Below are positions 768-55,300 of a DNA stretch of 64,000 nucleotides, one piece after another (the stretch's first letter is position 1; each line of letters opens with the position of its first letter). This stretch comes from Periplaneta americana (taxonomy: Eukaryota > Arthropoda > Insecta > Blattodea > Blattidae). Under the pieces are notes generated by a model. It was not told the DNA's origin and searched no databases. It worked only from the letters and a program-made list of their open reading frames with translations. A program made the position numbers and the translations under genes. The stretch spans positions 117,910,121 through 117,974,120 of the forward strand of contig NC_091125.1 of the NCBI RefSeq assembly GCF_040183065.1. Reading direction: 5' to 3'.

Positions 768-1538
768 TGTGACAGCGACGTGAGATTCGAACTCACGACC
801 AGCATCCCGCGAGAGATCATATCGCGCGGGCTTCACGAGGCACTGAGGGACGGCGCGCGGCAGAGAGGGGAAAGGGCCAACGCAGCGAGAGAGTGGAGAG
901 AGAGTGCCCGCGCAACTGCTGCGTATGGAGTAGTGGGGGACGGACTCTCCCGACTCTTCCAGAAGTCCGTCGAAGTGGAAATATCCAGATAATTCTCTGC
1001 ACACCTGTAGAAATTTCTCGCAATTATGATTTCGCTATAAAAGAAGAAACGCCAGCGAACTCGAGCAGTTTTTCAGTTGATTAGTCAGCCAGTCAGTGAG
1101 AAAGCCGGAGCAAGCAAGCCAGTCTTATGTACCGGAGTTCGACTCGAGTGTGCGTCCGCAACTGTATCAGCATCCGAAGGCCTGAGTTCGAGTTCAGTGG
1201 ACCGCAGTTGGAGGGACCTGAGTTCGAGTACAGTGAACTGTCTCTGAAGGTCTGTGGTTCGAGATACTGTGAACTCGAGTTACTGAGCTAGAAGAACTGT
1301 GAACGGAGAACTGATAGTTCTGATTTGTAAATAGTGCTTTGTAAATATTAGTTAAGATTAACAGTTCATTGTTGTTCGTACTAGTCCAAGTAAATTGTCA
1401 TTGTCGTCGGTGGAGTGCTATAACGAATACTGTGTTGAGTGAAAATCCAATTGTTGATGAGAGCGTTTAAGGCGAATTGTAGAAAAGAATTATTGTTGGA
1501 AGAATAAAATTCCATTGTTGAGTTGAATTAAATTTACA
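768..1538 (+). repeat. 5' LTR
   Basis: The LTR is 771 bp, TG...CA bounded, and matches 3717-4458 except for small indels near 862-874, 1232-1242 and 1455-1467 that are present only here. It contains a TATA box, a polyadenylation hexamer at 1503-1508, and several imperfect copies of a GAGTTCGAGT motif between about 1136 and 1290. Confidence 0.9.
1036..1043 (+). promoter_or_regulatory. TATA box of the 5' LTR
   Basis: TATAAAAG lies in the middle of the LTR. An initiator-like GCAGTT places a possible start near 1067, 31 bp downstream. The identical box in the 3' LTR is at 3974-3981. Confidence 0.65.
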
Positions 1539-1539
1539 T

Positions 1540-1557
1540 TGGTGTCAGAAGTGGGAT
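1540..1557 (+). other. Putative primer-binding site
   Basis: TGGTGTCAGAAGTGGGAT starts 2 bp after the 5' LTR end. TGG is the expected complement of a tRNA CCA end. I did not assign the priming tRNA. Confidence 0.7.
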
Positions 1558-1567
1558 ATTATCGACA

Positions 1568-3667
1568 ATGGAGAACCTACAGCAGATCCTGCAAGCCATC
1601 GCAGAAATGAAAGCAGAAATGAACATGCACATTAGTGAAGTAAAAGATAACATGAACGACATGAACAGGCACATCAGTGAGGTCAAGAACGATATAAGTG
1701 AAGTGAAAACAGAGATGAAAAGTGACATAAGCGGAGTGAAAGATGACGTCACTACGCAAATTGAAAGAGTTTCGGCCCACGTAGATGGAATTGCCGCCAT
1801 TGTGAAAGACGAACTTAAGGCCGATTTGGATAAACTAAACCAGAATTTTACAACTATAAACGAGACAGTAGCCGAGTTGAGAAAGGATGTAGACCATTTC
1901 GATGGCAAAATCCGCGATCTCGAGCGTCGTCAAGAGCAGACGAGCGAGTTGCTGGACAAGACGAGTGAGATGATGGACAAACACGCTGAGGAAAACAAGC
2001 ACATTCTCGCGTTGGTGGATCGCCAGGCTAGAGAACATAAACAGATAGTTGCTGAGGAGGTTCGACGTGCCATGCAAGAAGCGGCCACAGAGTTGAGGAC
2101 TCCATATAGTGGCCCTGTGGAACCATCGCCTTCAGCCAGACATTACAACGTCAAGACGCCGAAGTTCGACGGTACGACGTCTTGGGCGATATTCCGTCGC
2201 CAATTCGAGGCCACCGCTGCACATAATGGGTGGATGCCAGCGGAGAAGACTACCCAGCTGTTGACCACGCTTCAAGGACAGGCGTCGGAGATTCTTCACA
2301 GCGTGCCGAAAGATGGGACAGCCGCTGAGATTATGGCGGCCTTGGAGGGACGTTATGGTGACCATCAACTTGCTGCAGCATTCAGGACCCAATTGAAAAC
2401 GAGGGTCCAACTGTCAGGCGAGTCCCTGCAAGAATTCGCGATGGCGGTGGAACAACTTGCCCATAAGGCCCTCAGGGGCCTGCCTACTGACTTCATCGCT
2501 GGAGAGGCTGCCTACACTGGCAGCAGAGTTCGAGACCCGGAAATAAGACAACAGCTACTCCTGGCAGAGCATCGCACTATCAACGCAGCTCTGGTGGCGG
2601 CCCTCAGGATGGAGGCGGCCAAGTCGGCGGCGGGAGTCTCAACACCGCACTGGATCAGGAGCGTCACGGCGACGGATGCTGGGGGGCGCCAACCGAAGCC
2701 ACCCGAGCAGCAGTCAACGGAGCGGCGGAGACGACGGGTGCCCACCTGCTGGTCCTGTGGCAAACCAGGACACTTGAGAAGGGACTGTGACCAATCCAGC
2801 CACAGGCAGGAGAGAGAGGTGGCTGACGTCGAGGAGCGCCAGCAGTCAACGGAGCGGCAGAGACGACTGGCGCCCATCTGCTGGTCCTGCGGGAGGCCGG
2901 GACACCTAAGGAGGGACTGCGACCACTCTGGCCACCGGCCGGAGAGAGAGGTGGCAGACATCGAGAGGAGTCAACAGTCGCCTGAGCAACGGGGACGACG
3001 GGTGCCCACCTGGTGGTCCTGCGGTGAACCTGGGCACTTGCGGAGGAGTTGCGACCGACCTGGCTACAGTCAGGAGAGAGAGGGGGCCGATGCTAGGAGG
3101 AGCACGTCGGCGCCATCATCACCGTCCCCTCGGCTCGTCCTGAAACCGGTCGACAGAAGATGCGACGATGGGCTGATTGCTGAAGGACGGATAAAAGGCC
3201 GTCCATGCAGAGTACTGGTGGACACCGGGGCGATGCTCACTATCGCCAGACCAGACGTCGTGCGTGGCCTACCTGGGAGGACGCCGCTGCGCCAATACGA
3301 GCTACGGACTGCTTCAGGCGAGAGCTTGCCCATCCAGAGAGAGGTCTTCCTGGACCTGACCTTGGGGAAGAGGAAACTGGAGATGTGGGTGTTCGTCGCC
3401 AACATCACCCAGGACGTCGTCCTGGGACTCGACGCCATGTGGTTACTCGATGCGACGGTGGACGTCCGGCGCTGTATACTCCGTCTTGGTCGGGATGATG
3501 GACGCCGAGGACCAACCCGTGGCCAGCGAGCTCTCCTTGGAGGGCCAAGGGGAAAAGCAAGATGGCGCCCACGCAGAACGAGTATCGCTGCCCAGCCAAG
3601 CCAAGGATGGGGTGGCGCCACCATAAGGAGGGAGCAGCCGGAGGACCCCAAACGTTGGACCGACTAG
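1568..3667 (+). CDS. Gag-protease polyprotein of LTR retrotransposon, 699 aa
   Basis: The frame is uninterrupted from an ATG 10 bp after the PBS. Residues 1-165 are a predicted coiled coil with repeated SEVK/DI units. Residues about 190-340 resemble a retrotransposon gag capsid region (KTPKFDGTTSWAIFRRQFEA). Three CCHC zinc knuckles follow, spaced exactly 44 residues apart: 394-407 (CWSCGKPGHLRRDC), 438-451, and 482-495, where the first Cys is Trp. A retropepsin-like domain follows with catalytic D552-T553-G554 in LVDTGAM and a VLGLD flap-side motif near 618-622. The frame then runs through a basic tail and stops 49 bp before the 3' LTR. Full pol is absent. The knuckles would bind RNA, and the protease would process the polyprotein. 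An alternative explanation is an internal deletion derivative of a complete gypsy element; the intact frame suggests it spread or was recently active. Confidence 0.9.
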   Translation: MENLQQILQAIAEMKAEMNMHISEVKDNMNDMNRHISEVKNDISEVKTEMKSDISGVKDDVTTQIERVSAHVDGIAAIVKDELKADLDKLNQNFTTINETVAELRKDVDHFDGKIRDLERRQEQTSELLDKTSEMMDKHAEENKHILALVDRQAREHKQIVAEEVRRAMQEAATELRTPYSGPVEPSPSARHYNVKTPKFDGTTSWAIFRRQFEATAAHNGWMPAEKTTQLLTTLQGQASEILHSVPKDGTAAEIMAALEGRYGDHQLAAAFRTQLKTRVQLSGESLQEFAMAVEQLAHKALRGLPTDFIAGEAAYTGSRVRDPEIRQQLLLAEHRTINAALVAALRMEAAKSAAGVSTPHWIRSVTATDAGGRQPKPPEQQSTERRRRRVPTCWSCGKPGHLRRDCDQSSHRQEREVADVEERQQSTERQRRLAPICWSCGRPGHLRRDCDHSGHRPEREVADIERSQQSPEQRGRRVPTWWSCGEPGHLRRSCDRPGYSQEREGADARRSTSAPSSPSPRLVLKPVDRRCDDGLIAEGRIKGRPCRVLVDTGAMLTIARPDVVRGLPGRTPLRQYELRTASGESLPIQREVFLDLTLGKRKLEMWVFVANITQDVVLGLDAMWLLDATVDVRRCILRLGRDDGRRGPTRGQRALLGGPRGKARWRPRRTSIAAQPSQGWGGATIRREQPEDPKRWTD

Positions 3668-3703
3668 CAGCCTACCAAGGGACTGCCCGAGACGAGCAGT
3701 CCT

Positions 3704-3716
3704 AAGGAGGGAGCAA
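3704..3716 (+). other. Polypurine tract
   Basis: AAGGAGGGAGCAA directly abuts the 3' LTR, the position for plus-strand priming. A near copy (AAGGAGGGAGCAG) lies inside the ORF around 3625-3637. Confidence 0.75.
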
Positions 3717-4458
3717 TGTGACAGCGACGTGAGATTCGAACTCACGACCAGCGTCCCGCGAGAGAGCATATCGCGCGGGCTTCACGAGGCACTGAGGGAT
3801 GGCGCGCGGCGGAGAGGGGAAAGGGCCAACGTGGAGAGAGAGTGCCCGCGCAACTGCTGCGTACGGAGTAGGGGGGGACGGACTCTCCCGACTCTTCCAG
3901 AAGTCCATCGAAGTGGAGATATCCAGATAATTCTCTGCACACCTGTAGAAATTTCTCGCAATTATGATTTCGCTATAAAAGAAGAAACGCCAGCAAACTC
4001 GAGCAGTTTTTCAGTTGATTAGTCAGCCAGTCAGTGAGAAAGCCAGAGCAAGCAAGCCAGTCTTGTGTACCGGAGTTCGACTCGAGTGTGCGTCCGCAAC
4101 TGTATCAGCATCCAAAGGCCTGAGTTCGAGTTCAGTGGACCGCAGTTGGAGGGACCTGAGTTCGAGTACTGTCTCTGAAGGTCTGTGGTTCGAGATACTG
4201 TGGACTCGAGTGACTGAGCTAGAAGAACTGTGAACGGAGAACTGATAGTTCTGATTTGTAAATAGTGCTTTGTAAATATTAGTTAAGATTAACAGTTCAT
4301 TGTTGTTCGTACTAGTCCAAGTAAATTGTCATTGTCGTCGGTGGAGTGCTATAACGAATACTGTGTTGAGTGAAAATCCAATTGTTAAGGCGAATTGTAG
4401 AAAAGAATTATTGTTGGAAGAATAAAATCCATTGTTGTGAGTTAAATAAAACGTTACA
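3717..4458 (+). repeat. 3' LTR
   Basis: The LTR is 742 bp and matches 768-1538. It carries TATA at 3974-3981 and AATAAA at 4421-4426 and 4445-4450, and ends TTACA. Target duplication ATAT follows at 4459-4462. Confidence 0.9.
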
Positions 4459-39488: not shown

Positions 39489-41684
<2,196 letters not shown>

Positions 41685-49800: not shown

Positions 49801-51878
49801 ACAGCAGTCCAGTAGCTAGAGCACTGGACTCATAATCCTGTGGACCCGGGTTTGATCCCCAGTGTATCGCCATTATACTTGTATTGGCCATGCTTGTGGC
49901 CCAGGTAACACAGGGGTTTTCTCTGGGAGCTCCGGTTCCCCTATGGCATCCCAACAAATTTATATCTCATCTCTAGACTAGCCTCTTGTGGTGCACCCTA
50001 GACAATAATTCTGTTGGTAATTTGGTCTATCCCGGTCGGGGCAAGTTACCTGGTTGAGGTTTTTTCCGGGGTTTTCCCTCAACCCAATACGAGCAAATGC
50101 TGGGTAACTTTCGGTGCTGGACCCCGGACTCATTTCACCGGCATTATCACCTTCATATCATTCAGACGCTAAATAACCTAGATGTTGATACAGCGTCGTA
50201 AAATAACCCAATAAAATAAAAAAAAATTGGTCTACAACAACAGGCTTCATATGGGTGAATGACGAACAGTCAAGTACCAGCCATTATTAAATATATATAT
50301 TTTTGGTTGCTTGGCCATGATTACATACTCTTGTATTCATTCAAGCAAAGCATTAAATAGGTTGTAGGTGTCCTGGCCACCCACCCACCCCAATATTTAA
50401 TAATAATTAAACATTGAACAAATGATTGATACTTCGAAAAGATATTAACTTATTGCTAATTTTGTACAAATGTTCAGTTTCTCCTCTTCTTACAAATCAG
50501 TCATATAACTTATTCTAATTCTTATACAGAATCCAGAAACTATTACTTCTTGTCCGTTTATCATTTTCTGAAAGCTAGAACAGGTAATATCCTCATATTA
50601 CACTGGATCTGTAGAATTGTTCTGACAGTAACTATTGACAACTTTCTGTTTAGTGATATTCATAAAAGAAACCATCGTTTCCATATTTTCATCGTCATCA
50701 TAAATCAGAAAGTCCACACCTGTGGAGTAACGGTCAGCGCGTCTGGCCATGAAACCAGGTGGCCCGGGTTCGATTCCCGGTTGGGACAAGTTACCTGGTT
50801 GAGGTTTTTTTCCGGGGTTTTCCCTCCGCCCAATACGAGCAAATGCTGGGTAACTTTCGGTGCTGGACCCCGGACTCATTTCACCGGCATTATCACCTTC
50901 ATCTCATTCAGACGCTAAATAACCTAAGATGTTGATAAAGCGTCGTAAAATAACCTACTAAAAAAAAAAGAATAAATCAGAAAGTATCAGTCAATACAAT
51001 ACCATACCAATAACATCTGTAAACATCTAAATAGCATGAACTCTAGTGATTTCACTTTAATTTGAAGAGGTAATTATATTTGAAATAGAGTAAGATGCTG
51101 TTTCTCTTTGTAGTCTCTTATGGAAGTTCAGCTAGATCTACTATGCAATGCATTTCAAATTACGTATTTATACAAAATTTGAAGTATTTTAAGCTACTTT
51201 AAAATAATCTGAGATTTTCGAACTTGTTCAACCATCCAGCTAGAACAGTTTTTATTCACCTGAACTTGGGACATTCTCAGTTTTCCAGGATGTATGGCCG
51301 TTCTAGACAAAATGAGAAACATAAGAACTTTGAAGAAACTGGCAGCTTTACTTTTCAAGAAGTGTTCTTTTTACTCTGTTGAACTCTACTTCCGCATCCA
51401 ACTAGGAAAAATCCTCATTTAGCATAATTTTAAGTGTGTTTAATTTTTGTTACAGAAATTAAGAATCATTTGCAAGCGATCTGAGTTCAATCTTCATGCA
51501 GGCCAGCATTACAGTAAATTTGACGATATTCCATTAGCATCCAAAGGATGGCACCATCGGAAATCTAGAGGAGACTTCTTCACAATCCAGAGCTATCGAG
51601 AGGCAAGTGGAATTTATGTGTAATTGTAATTTCTTCAGTCAAATCTTCAAGGTGTTTTGTATTATTATATTTTCATTGCACAGATATTGTTCATATTCAT
51701 TATATACGAGTTAACTTTTGAAAACATGATGTACAGACCCACAAACAAAATTTGGGCCACCTGAATTTTCCAAGTTCCAGTTATAACATACTGCACAAAT
51801 TCAGTAAACACTGAGCATGCACAGTATGTTCTAGAACTTGGAAAATCCAGATGGCCCAAATTTTGTTTCTGGGTCTGT

Positions 51879-51926
<48 letters not shown>

Positions 51927-52229
51927 GGTAAAGAAAAATGAATGATTATTTTAAATAAAAAATATCAAACAAGTCTCTCTGATCATTTTCTGTTGCATAG
52001 GATAAACTTAAAAATGAAACGGAATTTCTATAAAGGAAAATTCATATTCATTATATACGAGTTAACTTTTGAAAACATGATGTACAGACCCACAAACAAA
52101 ATTTGGGCCACCTGAATTTTCCAAGTTCCAGTTATAACATACTGCACAAATTCAGTAAACACTGAGCATGCACAGTATGTTCTAGAACTTGGAAAATCCA
52201 GATGGCCCAAATTTTGTTTCTGGGTCTGT

Positions 52230-52301
<72 letters not shown>

Positions 52302-55300
52302 GGTAAAGAAAAATGAATGATTATTTTAAATAAAAAATATCAAACAAGTCTCTCTGATCATTTTCTGTTGCATAGGATAAACTTAAATTGATGTTCTATA
52401 GAAAATTATTAGGCACAGAATTATTTATACTTTCCGTTACAATTATAGTCATAGTTTTTTTTTTTTTTTACCCTCTCTGACTAGAAAACTAAAGAAGTAG
52501 TGGGGCATCACTCTTTCTTAAAGATAAACTGTAATACTTACGCATGAGTAAATTTTCACAGATGCAGGGTCTTAAAAAGGTTTGGAATCTCATTACTGGT
52601 ATAAATTCTAATGTAGTTAACACTTTTATCACTTATTAGTGCTGGCTTTATGTGAACCTGCAAAATTAATTATCTTTACTTAAAATATACTTTTAAACAG
52701 TTTTAAAATACAGTCAGATGACACACTTTTGAATCATAAAAGAATGTTTTTGTGTCATGAGAACTGAGTATGCCAGCATCAAGGAGCTATATCCTATTAT
52801 ACTAACTATGAATGGATAAATGAAATATCATATTGAGAAATATGAGAAAAAGACACAAGTCAGGAAATGCAAGGAAGTGGCTACAGCTATCAAGTAAGTT
52901 AAATAATAGTTTTCATTTTCAAATAAACATTTAATAATAAAAAGCAAATAAATGTTCTTGACATAAATAATTACAATAATTTATTAACATGAGACATTAT
53001 TAAATAATACATATAAATGCTTTTCTATCAGCAAAGTAATTATAGTGGAAATAACACGGCAATTTATATATTAAATGTAAAAGAATCAATAACGAAAATA
53101 AGAAATCCGATTGAAGAAATGGTAGTTTTGCTGGTGAGGAATCAAATTTAAAATTTAGAAATGAAAAAGTAATGAACAGAAACCAAAAAGAATAGGGTCT
53201 GGTGTTACTGTACTTAAATGCAATACATCCCACCTGATTTGTCAAAAAAGATTGGATGGTACAGAGCAGGCAAGAAGCTAATAATAGAGAAAAAATACAA
53301 AATGTGTATGATTTGGGCATTTTTCATTAATCCTTAGCATAGTCCATTAGTGGCATTTCTTCTTATGCGCAATACAAGGTGGTAGTGGTCTCTCACATAA
53401 TCTACATATGCATTTATTCTCCAGTTCATGGAAATATATTATTTTCCATATTTTATGATGAAAATTATGAATTATTAGTGTGATGATGTTCCTTCTCATG
53501 TCTCAATTAGGTCTCATCCAGCCACTGTTGATCATAGTGTCTGTTCTGTAGAATTGCAAGCAGATTTACTCGCTCTTCTTTCTTCTAGTATTTCTTTGTA
53601 CATCCAAGTAGATGGTAGCAAGAAGTCTGTTTTCAGGTTTTGTATAACGAAGATTTCGCGTGCAAGTGTTGCTTTTAGAAATCTTGCCTGAACACCTTCT
53701 AGAGTTATTTCATTTTATACATCTTGATTACACAACTTTTAACACTACTGAAACTAGTCCACTAAGTATTAATAAATTTAGTTCGCCATTAACACGTGAA
53801 AGTGATCACCATGAATTATGTTTCTAAGTGATATACTGTTAAAAGTTGTGTAATCAAGATGTATAATCAAGGCGAGACAAGTTATATACCAATAATACAC
53901 AAATACAGGTCCACGTGAATCAAAGCCATAAAAACATCACACCACATAAGCATCAACCAAGAATGCCCAAACCAACAATTTACATCAAAGTACGCACAAA
54001 TCAACATAAAAACACATCATATCCTGCACAAAAGACAAACACTACAGCAGAAAAAACGTACATACAAAACAACATTAAACATCTACACTACACAAAAAAA
54101 TCAACATAACATAAATACATACAAACTACATTTGCAATTAGCTCGCACACTACACTACACGGAACTTATGACGTTATAACACACACAAACAGAATATCAT
54201 CACAAATAAGCCAAAAATAAAAAAAGACAGAAAAACAAAGCAGCAATGTTAAAGACACAACAACATACAGCATGAAACGCAAATTCCATCTGAGAATATT
54301 CAACACCACCAACATAACATTCAACCATAATGAAACCAGACTACTTGAGAAAGGATTGAAACACAACATACACCAAAACAACACAGGGACAAGACAATGA
54401 ACACAAAAAATCGTAAACACAGAAACAGCAATACGGAATACACAAAAATCAACATCATGAATACATGAGACAAGACATAATAAGAAACATAAGCAAAATA
54501 AAGCCATAAAAAACAAACAAGAACACAAAACAATAAGCACCTTAAAAACAAAACAAGAAGAACATAACCTAACATCTGAAGAAACTGGAAGACACAAGGA
54601 TCTCATTAGTTCTGAAGATAGCTCCTATTAAGCTGAAACTAGTCAACTAAATAGTTATAAATTTTAGTTCACCAGTAACATGTGAAAGTGATCACCATAA
54701 ATTCTATTTCACTTTAATTTCAGAATCCAGCTGTGTCCACTTCCTCAGATATAAAGAGCAGCTTCAGTGATACAGGCATAAGTGAAGAAATCACTACCAT
54801 TCTTGAGGAGCAACATATAACAAGTCCGACTGTGATTCAGGTACTATCTTCAGTTCATTACAATCCAGCATCCATTTAGTCAGTTTGTAGCTTATTAGCA
54901 CTACTATAAGAATCCTAGTCTGATTCCTGATGTATCTTGTCTGATGTAGTTTATTGAAAAGCTGAGCAGTAGGTTTTCTCGTGAGCATTGCAGTTTTCCC
55001 TGTCAAATTGACTCTAATTAGTTTTTTCATTCTTCAGTATACTCCTTGAACACTTATATAATCAGTGATGGTTTCAATAAATAAATAACGACTTAACTTT
55101 GTCAACATATTGAAATAACTTAACAATACATCACTAATTAATTTGTCCTTTAAAATTATTGTGCATGTACTTGTGTGTGACATACTCTTACATTCTTTAA
55201 ACTAAGTCCATCAGTATCACATATCGGTCGGTTAGTTGTCTTCTGGCAATATGATTTCTATGAGTACAACATAGTCACCACTTGATATTGTCATATTTGT

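Follow-up and report, generated by a model that had tools for sequence, protein, structure and literature searches.

Positions 54606-54650 (plus strand) of the window, by which we mean the whole 64,000-nucleotide stretch of Periplaneta americana DNA analysed here, read as a complete small hammerhead motif, from helix I to helix I. The motif is very probably one of thousands of small, dimer-type hammerheads of Penelope-like elements (PLEs), carried as a passenger in a decayed insertion within an intron of a DDX28-type gene. This class of motif is already published and the copy is an ordinary one for a PLE-rich genome; the genome search thus places a striking single motif within a family that is already known and very large.

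The palindrome that replaces helix III would, in a live element, allow pairing between two PLE RNAs or between two copies in tandem. Each partner would supply the cleavage site for the catalytic core of the other, and both would be cut after C17, a mode of cutting that we carry over from the published class. The old PLE insertion would have decayed in the DDX28-type intron, leaving the hammerhead in the 3' terminal repeat with its core complete. The intronic copy would, we infer, at most cut slowly and would have no role in the host gene.

A complete core with a loopless helix III

The motif starts with the 5' strand of a 6-bp helix I (UUAGUU/AACUAA, 54606-54611 and 54645-54650), followed by the core CUGAAGA, C3 to A9 (54612-54618). 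An extra U (54619) separates A9 from helix II, which has 4 bp and a 7-nt loop (AGCU/AGCU, 54620-54623 and 54631-54634, spanning 54620-54634). The core GAA (54635-54637), the palindrome ACUAGU, forming a loopless helix III (54638-54643), and the predicted cleavage base C17 (54644) complete the motif, all on the plus strand; the hammerhead model would place the cut directly after C17. The pattern CTGANGAN{5,25}GAAACTAGTC matched the window a single time and was found in 0 of 100 shuffles.

The original prediction had described all core nucleotides, a helix I of 6 bp and a helix II of 4 bp, and both the sequence and a covariance model built with the window copy held out (see below) agree. It was also right that ACTAGT could pair only between two copies, as is the case for a loopless palindrome of 6 nt. 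The main parts of that description therefore stand; it omitted the extra U at 54619, and it did not mention that the class was already published.

A large family in which helix III is a palindrome

We counted patterns over the whole 3.23-Gb genome, which contains the window, with the reversed patterns as control. CTGANGA-N(3-20)-GAAACTAGTC gave 1529 exact cores genome-wide against 7 for the reversed pattern. When the U after A9 was required and A, C or T was allowed as cleavage base, the ACTAGT core was found 1770 times (4 reversed) and the same core with ACATGT 11,799 times (12 reversed); with ACAAGT, the sole non-palindrome counted, there were 109 matches (16 reversed). If helix III forms between two copies, palindromes should be in excess, and two different ones, ACUAGU and ACAUGU, are. 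Both palindromes far outnumber the one non-palindrome counted, and the genome cleanly supports dimer action of the family. Helix III is reduced here to a loopless self-complementary stretch, one of the features of small PLE hammerheads.

Sixty-seven copies were read, the window copy included; the set retains one row that resembles chance (L127). The nucleotide after A9 was T in 65 of them, as at 54619, and C in 2. Many family copies have weak helices: helix I was unbroken over at least 6 bp in only 8 of the 67, the window copy among them, and helix II reached at least 4 bp after the extra nucleotide in 37. In 44 of the 67 copies the sequence reads CTGAAG-ATG, the ATG spanning A9-U-G10.1 of the ribozyme; because of the extra U, a start codon thus overlaps the catalytic core in most copies. 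In the 33-nt form of the family, the cut falls 26 nt after the A of this ATG. The window copy has ATA at these positions (54618-54620).

Hammerhead motifs that neighbour each other within 2 kb were mostly divergent. Among the first 100 places listed for ACATGT motifs, 31 adjacent pairs lay less than 2 kb apart, of which 19 were divergent (minus then plus), 1 was convergent and 11 were on the same strand, 10 of these 11 belonging to one array. Among the first 100 places listed for ACTAGT motifs, all 5 adjacent pairs within 2 kb were divergent. Divergent pairs are found for example at loci L149, L155, L181 and L228; at L181, the two hammerhead motifs are only tens of bases apart. At G000:C1:18458141-18462574, at least 11 ACATGT hammerhead motifs follow one another on the same strand, mostly spaced by 343 bp, in a tandem array that resembles a satellite or a retrozyme.

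The host gene and the fate of the intronic copy

The exon that follows the motif (54724-54840, plus strand) covers the Q-motif region of a DDX28-type DEAD-box helicase and ends in ITSPTVIQ. Joined to four further open pieces of the window, it had DDX28 chains as its best match (7oi6_x, E 1.8e-35), and against Pfam the same joined pieces matched DEAD (E 4e-32). As the gene is on the plus strand, the motif is in sense orientation, just as had been proposed. The 3' splice site, TTTCAG followed by AAT at 54723/54724, is located 73 nt past 54650, and the predicted cut after 54644 would fall 79 nt before the exon. Literature searches that covered few subscription journals brought up no publication about the intron.

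It is conceivable but improbable that the copy in the intron works as a ribozyme and cleaves the DDX28-type pre-mRNA, either through dimers of two transcripts or in trans with other PLE RNA, lowering the splicing of the downstream exon. The intact core and helices, the sense orientation and the thousands of potential partner copies in the genome would all suit such an activity, and a precedent is described in PMC10919898 for Cpeb3, where an intronic ribozyme modulates its own gene. However, when two copies were forced into a double hammerhead, the calculated energy was -12.8 kcal/mol versus -18.8 kcal/mol for the best dimer fold, i.e. 6.0 kcal/mol above it, in an energy model that ignores tertiary contacts and protein help. 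The double hammerhead was the best dimer fold in 0 of 56 copies. The window copy ranked 3rd of these 56 for the smallest gap between the two folds, a point in favour of activity; as modelled, the energy estimates do not favour an active dimer.

The position of the predicted cut also argues against an effect: the exon, only 79 nt away, would be transcribed almost at once, and a ribozyme that needs two RNAs would therefore be expected to do little. Moreover, Fong 2009, in the account of PMC10919898, reported no effect of slow intronic ribozymes on splicing, and a PLE hammerhead of Anolis was inactive without the PLE protein, according to the account in PMC11167929.

The nearest copies, chosen by overall similarity (19 of 20 were counted, L228 being left out), kept the exact core in 9 of 19 cases, and 10 of 19, about half, were broken; thus, the intact core of the window copy needs no selection. 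In the same 19 copies, conservation was 0.955 in the core columns and 0.915 elsewhere in the repeat (permutation p 0.09). Judged by these sequences, the inserted copies show no clear mark of selection. Where the window copy departs from the majority at paired positions, the pairs are preserved: C to T at 54606 goes with G to A at 54650, and 54620 changes from G to A. The good helices, these pair-preserving changes and the 3rd place of 56 in the energy gap could hint at maintained activity; we read the window copy as a well-preserved fossil. Nothing found suggests that the DDX28-type gene uses the motif, and an effect on the host gene is unlikely.

We give very little credence to a broader version of this idea, in which expression of PLEs would provide an RNA (and the PLE protein) that completes intronic hammerheads in trans and cuts host pre-mRNAs. 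If true, trans cutting would tie retrotransposon activity to splicing, and genes with such introns would act as sensors of that activity; it is unsupported here.

Helix covariation and controls against chance

A resemblance by chance, with no true hammerhead behind it, is very improbable. Two results could be taken in its favour. First, monomer folds were no better than those of shuffles (z 0.20, -0.06 and -0.23), which is uninformative because the motif needs two copies. Second, Rfam returned nothing on the whole window at the gathering score, and no Rfam hammerhead was found in 54300-55000 up to E 10. But 6 loci with members of the family likewise gave no hammerhead with the Rfam models, so their silence on the window is also uninformative. 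The motif departs from the canonical type I hammerhead of the Rfam models, with a helix III devoid of a loop and no Rfam match.

Against a chance origin, the excess over the reversed patterns was about 200-fold for the first pattern (1529 versus 7), about 400-fold for the ACTAGT core (1770 versus 4) and about 1000-fold for ACATGT (11,799 versus 12). In addition, a covariance model made from 37 other copies, without the window, gave the window copy 67.3 bits (E 1.3e-17), the next-best match in the window reaching only E 0.16. A check with hammerhead covariance models, which the original prediction had called for, is thus positive with a model of the family and negative with those of Rfam.

These 37 copies also allowed us to follow the helices. 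The covariation set started from 42 copies whose spacer was 16 nt long, reduced to 38 when L122, L125, L126 and L128 were taken out and to 37 without the window; since they were picked by their exact core, they are no test of core conservation. In helix II, 82.4% of the cells were paired and all 4 pairs showed double changes; in helix I, 66.7% were paired and 5 of the 6 pairs showed such changes. For both helices together the figure was 73.0%, a value that 0 of 500 shuffles equalled, controls with slid partners giving 14-48%. The covariation score of 0.376 was likewise reached by 0 of 500 shuffles and fell to 0.04-0.24 when the partners were slid by 1-3 columns. Further pair types were not in excess: they numbered 17 in the 37 copies and 18.1 in shuffles, 429 of the 500 shuffles being as high. 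In helix I, the second and third pairs from the outer end were unpaired in 21 and 22 of the 37 copies, respectively. All together, helices I and II are backed by covariation, one measure, the further pair types, being no higher than in shuffles.

As a control, we also considered loci with the same core in IMG/VR, 120 among the matches listed, some of them near-identical. None of these 120 loci had a helix I of 6 bp; the best had 5 bp, in two loci sharing one sequence, and none combined a helix I of at least 5 bp with a helix II of at least 4 bp. A stricter PLE hammerhead pattern had 0 matches in IMG/VR.

The Penelope-like insertion around the motif

The hammerhead lies in the right terminal repeat, or 3' pseudo-LTR, of a Penelope-like insertion (54571-54708, plus strand), the extent of which we took from matches of other genomic copies. 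Places resembling 54560-54724 numbered 42 others among the matches listed, at 79-88% identity (40 of 658 candidates were scored), and 33 of these 42 stop at points equivalent to 54702-54708 of the window. Judging by these ends, 54702-54708 marks the 3' end of the shared part of the window copy, some copies running further.

A left copy of the repeat is found 885 bp upstream, in direct orientation (53748-53824, plus strand; 85.9% identity over 78 columns). It is truncated inside the hammerhead and retains GAAACTAGTC, with C17 at 53759. Two inverted arms of 33 nt (53715-53747, minus strand, and 53834-53866, plus strand), 97% complementary to each other, enclose most of this left copy. The insertion thus displays direct terminal repeats together with an inverted 5' arm, the architecture by which we identify a Penelope-like element. 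Tentatively, 53706-53717 and 54705-54716 may be a target-site duplication of 12 bp; 11 of the 12 bases are equal and the ends are ambiguous by a few bases.

We can hardly credit a reading in which the catalytic half of the right repeat cuts the substrate half of the left repeat after 53759 in the same transcript: the left copy keeps ACTAGTC, and the strand after it pairs with the 5' strand of the right helix I over 5 consecutive positions, but the first pair beside the cleavage site would be C opposite U, the left copy is without CUGANGA and helix II, and, folded together, the two pieces do best in a structure other than the hammerhead.

PLE protein motifs were sought in 20 related loci of 9 kb. 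A GIY-YIG-like motif was present on the same strand as the hammerhead in three of them: about 350 bp upstream in L189 (FYIGQTGRSFQTRYREHI), at about the same distance but degraded in L205, and about 730 bp upstream in L201. None was found in the remaining 17 of the 20 loci. Against Pfam, the L189 piece matched GIY-YIG (PF01541) with E 8e-4, which is below the curated cutoff, and the L201 piece had no match. In the window's own element, a frame for reverse transcriptase or GIY-YIG was sought in three pieces between 53867 and 54628, which gave no Pfam family, as expected for a copy of about 1 kb that has decayed. The stretch LLEKGLKHNI (54221-54397), which we had taken to be a PLE N-terminal motif, was dropped for want of a significant match.

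Assignment to the PLEs is based on the relatives, the repeat structure and a published parallel, the GIY-YIG evidence being weak and derived from related copies. The proposed location of the motif in a Penelope-like terminal repeat is supported by the direct repeat, the inverted arms and the GIY-YIG-like motif in 3 of 20 related loci.

Other features of the window

Two direct repeats of 93% identity (768-1532 and 3717-4451) flank an open frame of 711 aa that contains zinc knuckles (CWSCGKPGHLRRDC) and LVDTGA. The region 768-4451 resembles an LTR retrotransposon whose repeats enclose presumptive gag and protease parts but no polymerase. On the minus strand, 39726-41318 holds an open frame of 530 aa, presumably related to DNA transposases, and a very similar stretch is present at locus L196 of the same genome. 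A segment at 51690-52387 occurs in two direct copies (93%) and is an imperfect palindrome (80.8% identity to its own reverse complement).

Comparison with known systems

The structure of the insertion recalls the Penelope elements of Adineta vaga, which, in the account given in PMC3846280, have head-to-head inverted terminal repeats, a short tail and target duplications. The two have in common the inverted 5' repeats, an optional tail and perhaps the target duplications, which measure 8-10 bp in A. vaga; the animal is a different one, and the word hammerhead appears 0 times in the main text of that article.

The type I hammerheads of newt and axolotl, as portrayed in PMC7229834, are similar in their weak, partly palindromic helix III and are efficient only as dimers. 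In contrast to the motif described here, their helix III is short and closed, its tetraloop is palindromic, there are loop-loop contacts, and they lie in tandem repeats of 330-350 bp.

A closer parallel for the start codon is offered by PAc, a Poseidon PLE of Anolis. According to the description in PMC11167929, its ORF begins at stem II, the start codon comes after C3 and G8, and the cut lies 26 bp downstream. The CTGAAG-ATG of the cockroach family has an equal start-codon geometry, whereas the window copy has ATA in place of ATG. Cleavage in PAc, as reported there, occurred only with the PLE protein present but did not require its nuclease activity.

Finally, PLE sequences are described in PMC6155905 as carrying hammerheads that are mostly minimal forms without helix III. 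Cervera 2014 and Lunse 2017 are cited on the subject. The small variants that cleave as dimers (Lunse, Weinberg and Breaker 2017, RNA Biol 14:1499, as presented in PMC7761336) form the published class to which we assign the motif. The window copy differs from them in being an old intronic insertion whose dimer cleavage is putative; it shares with them the core, helices I and II, a near-absent helix III, the location in a PLE terminal repeat and the logic of the dimer.
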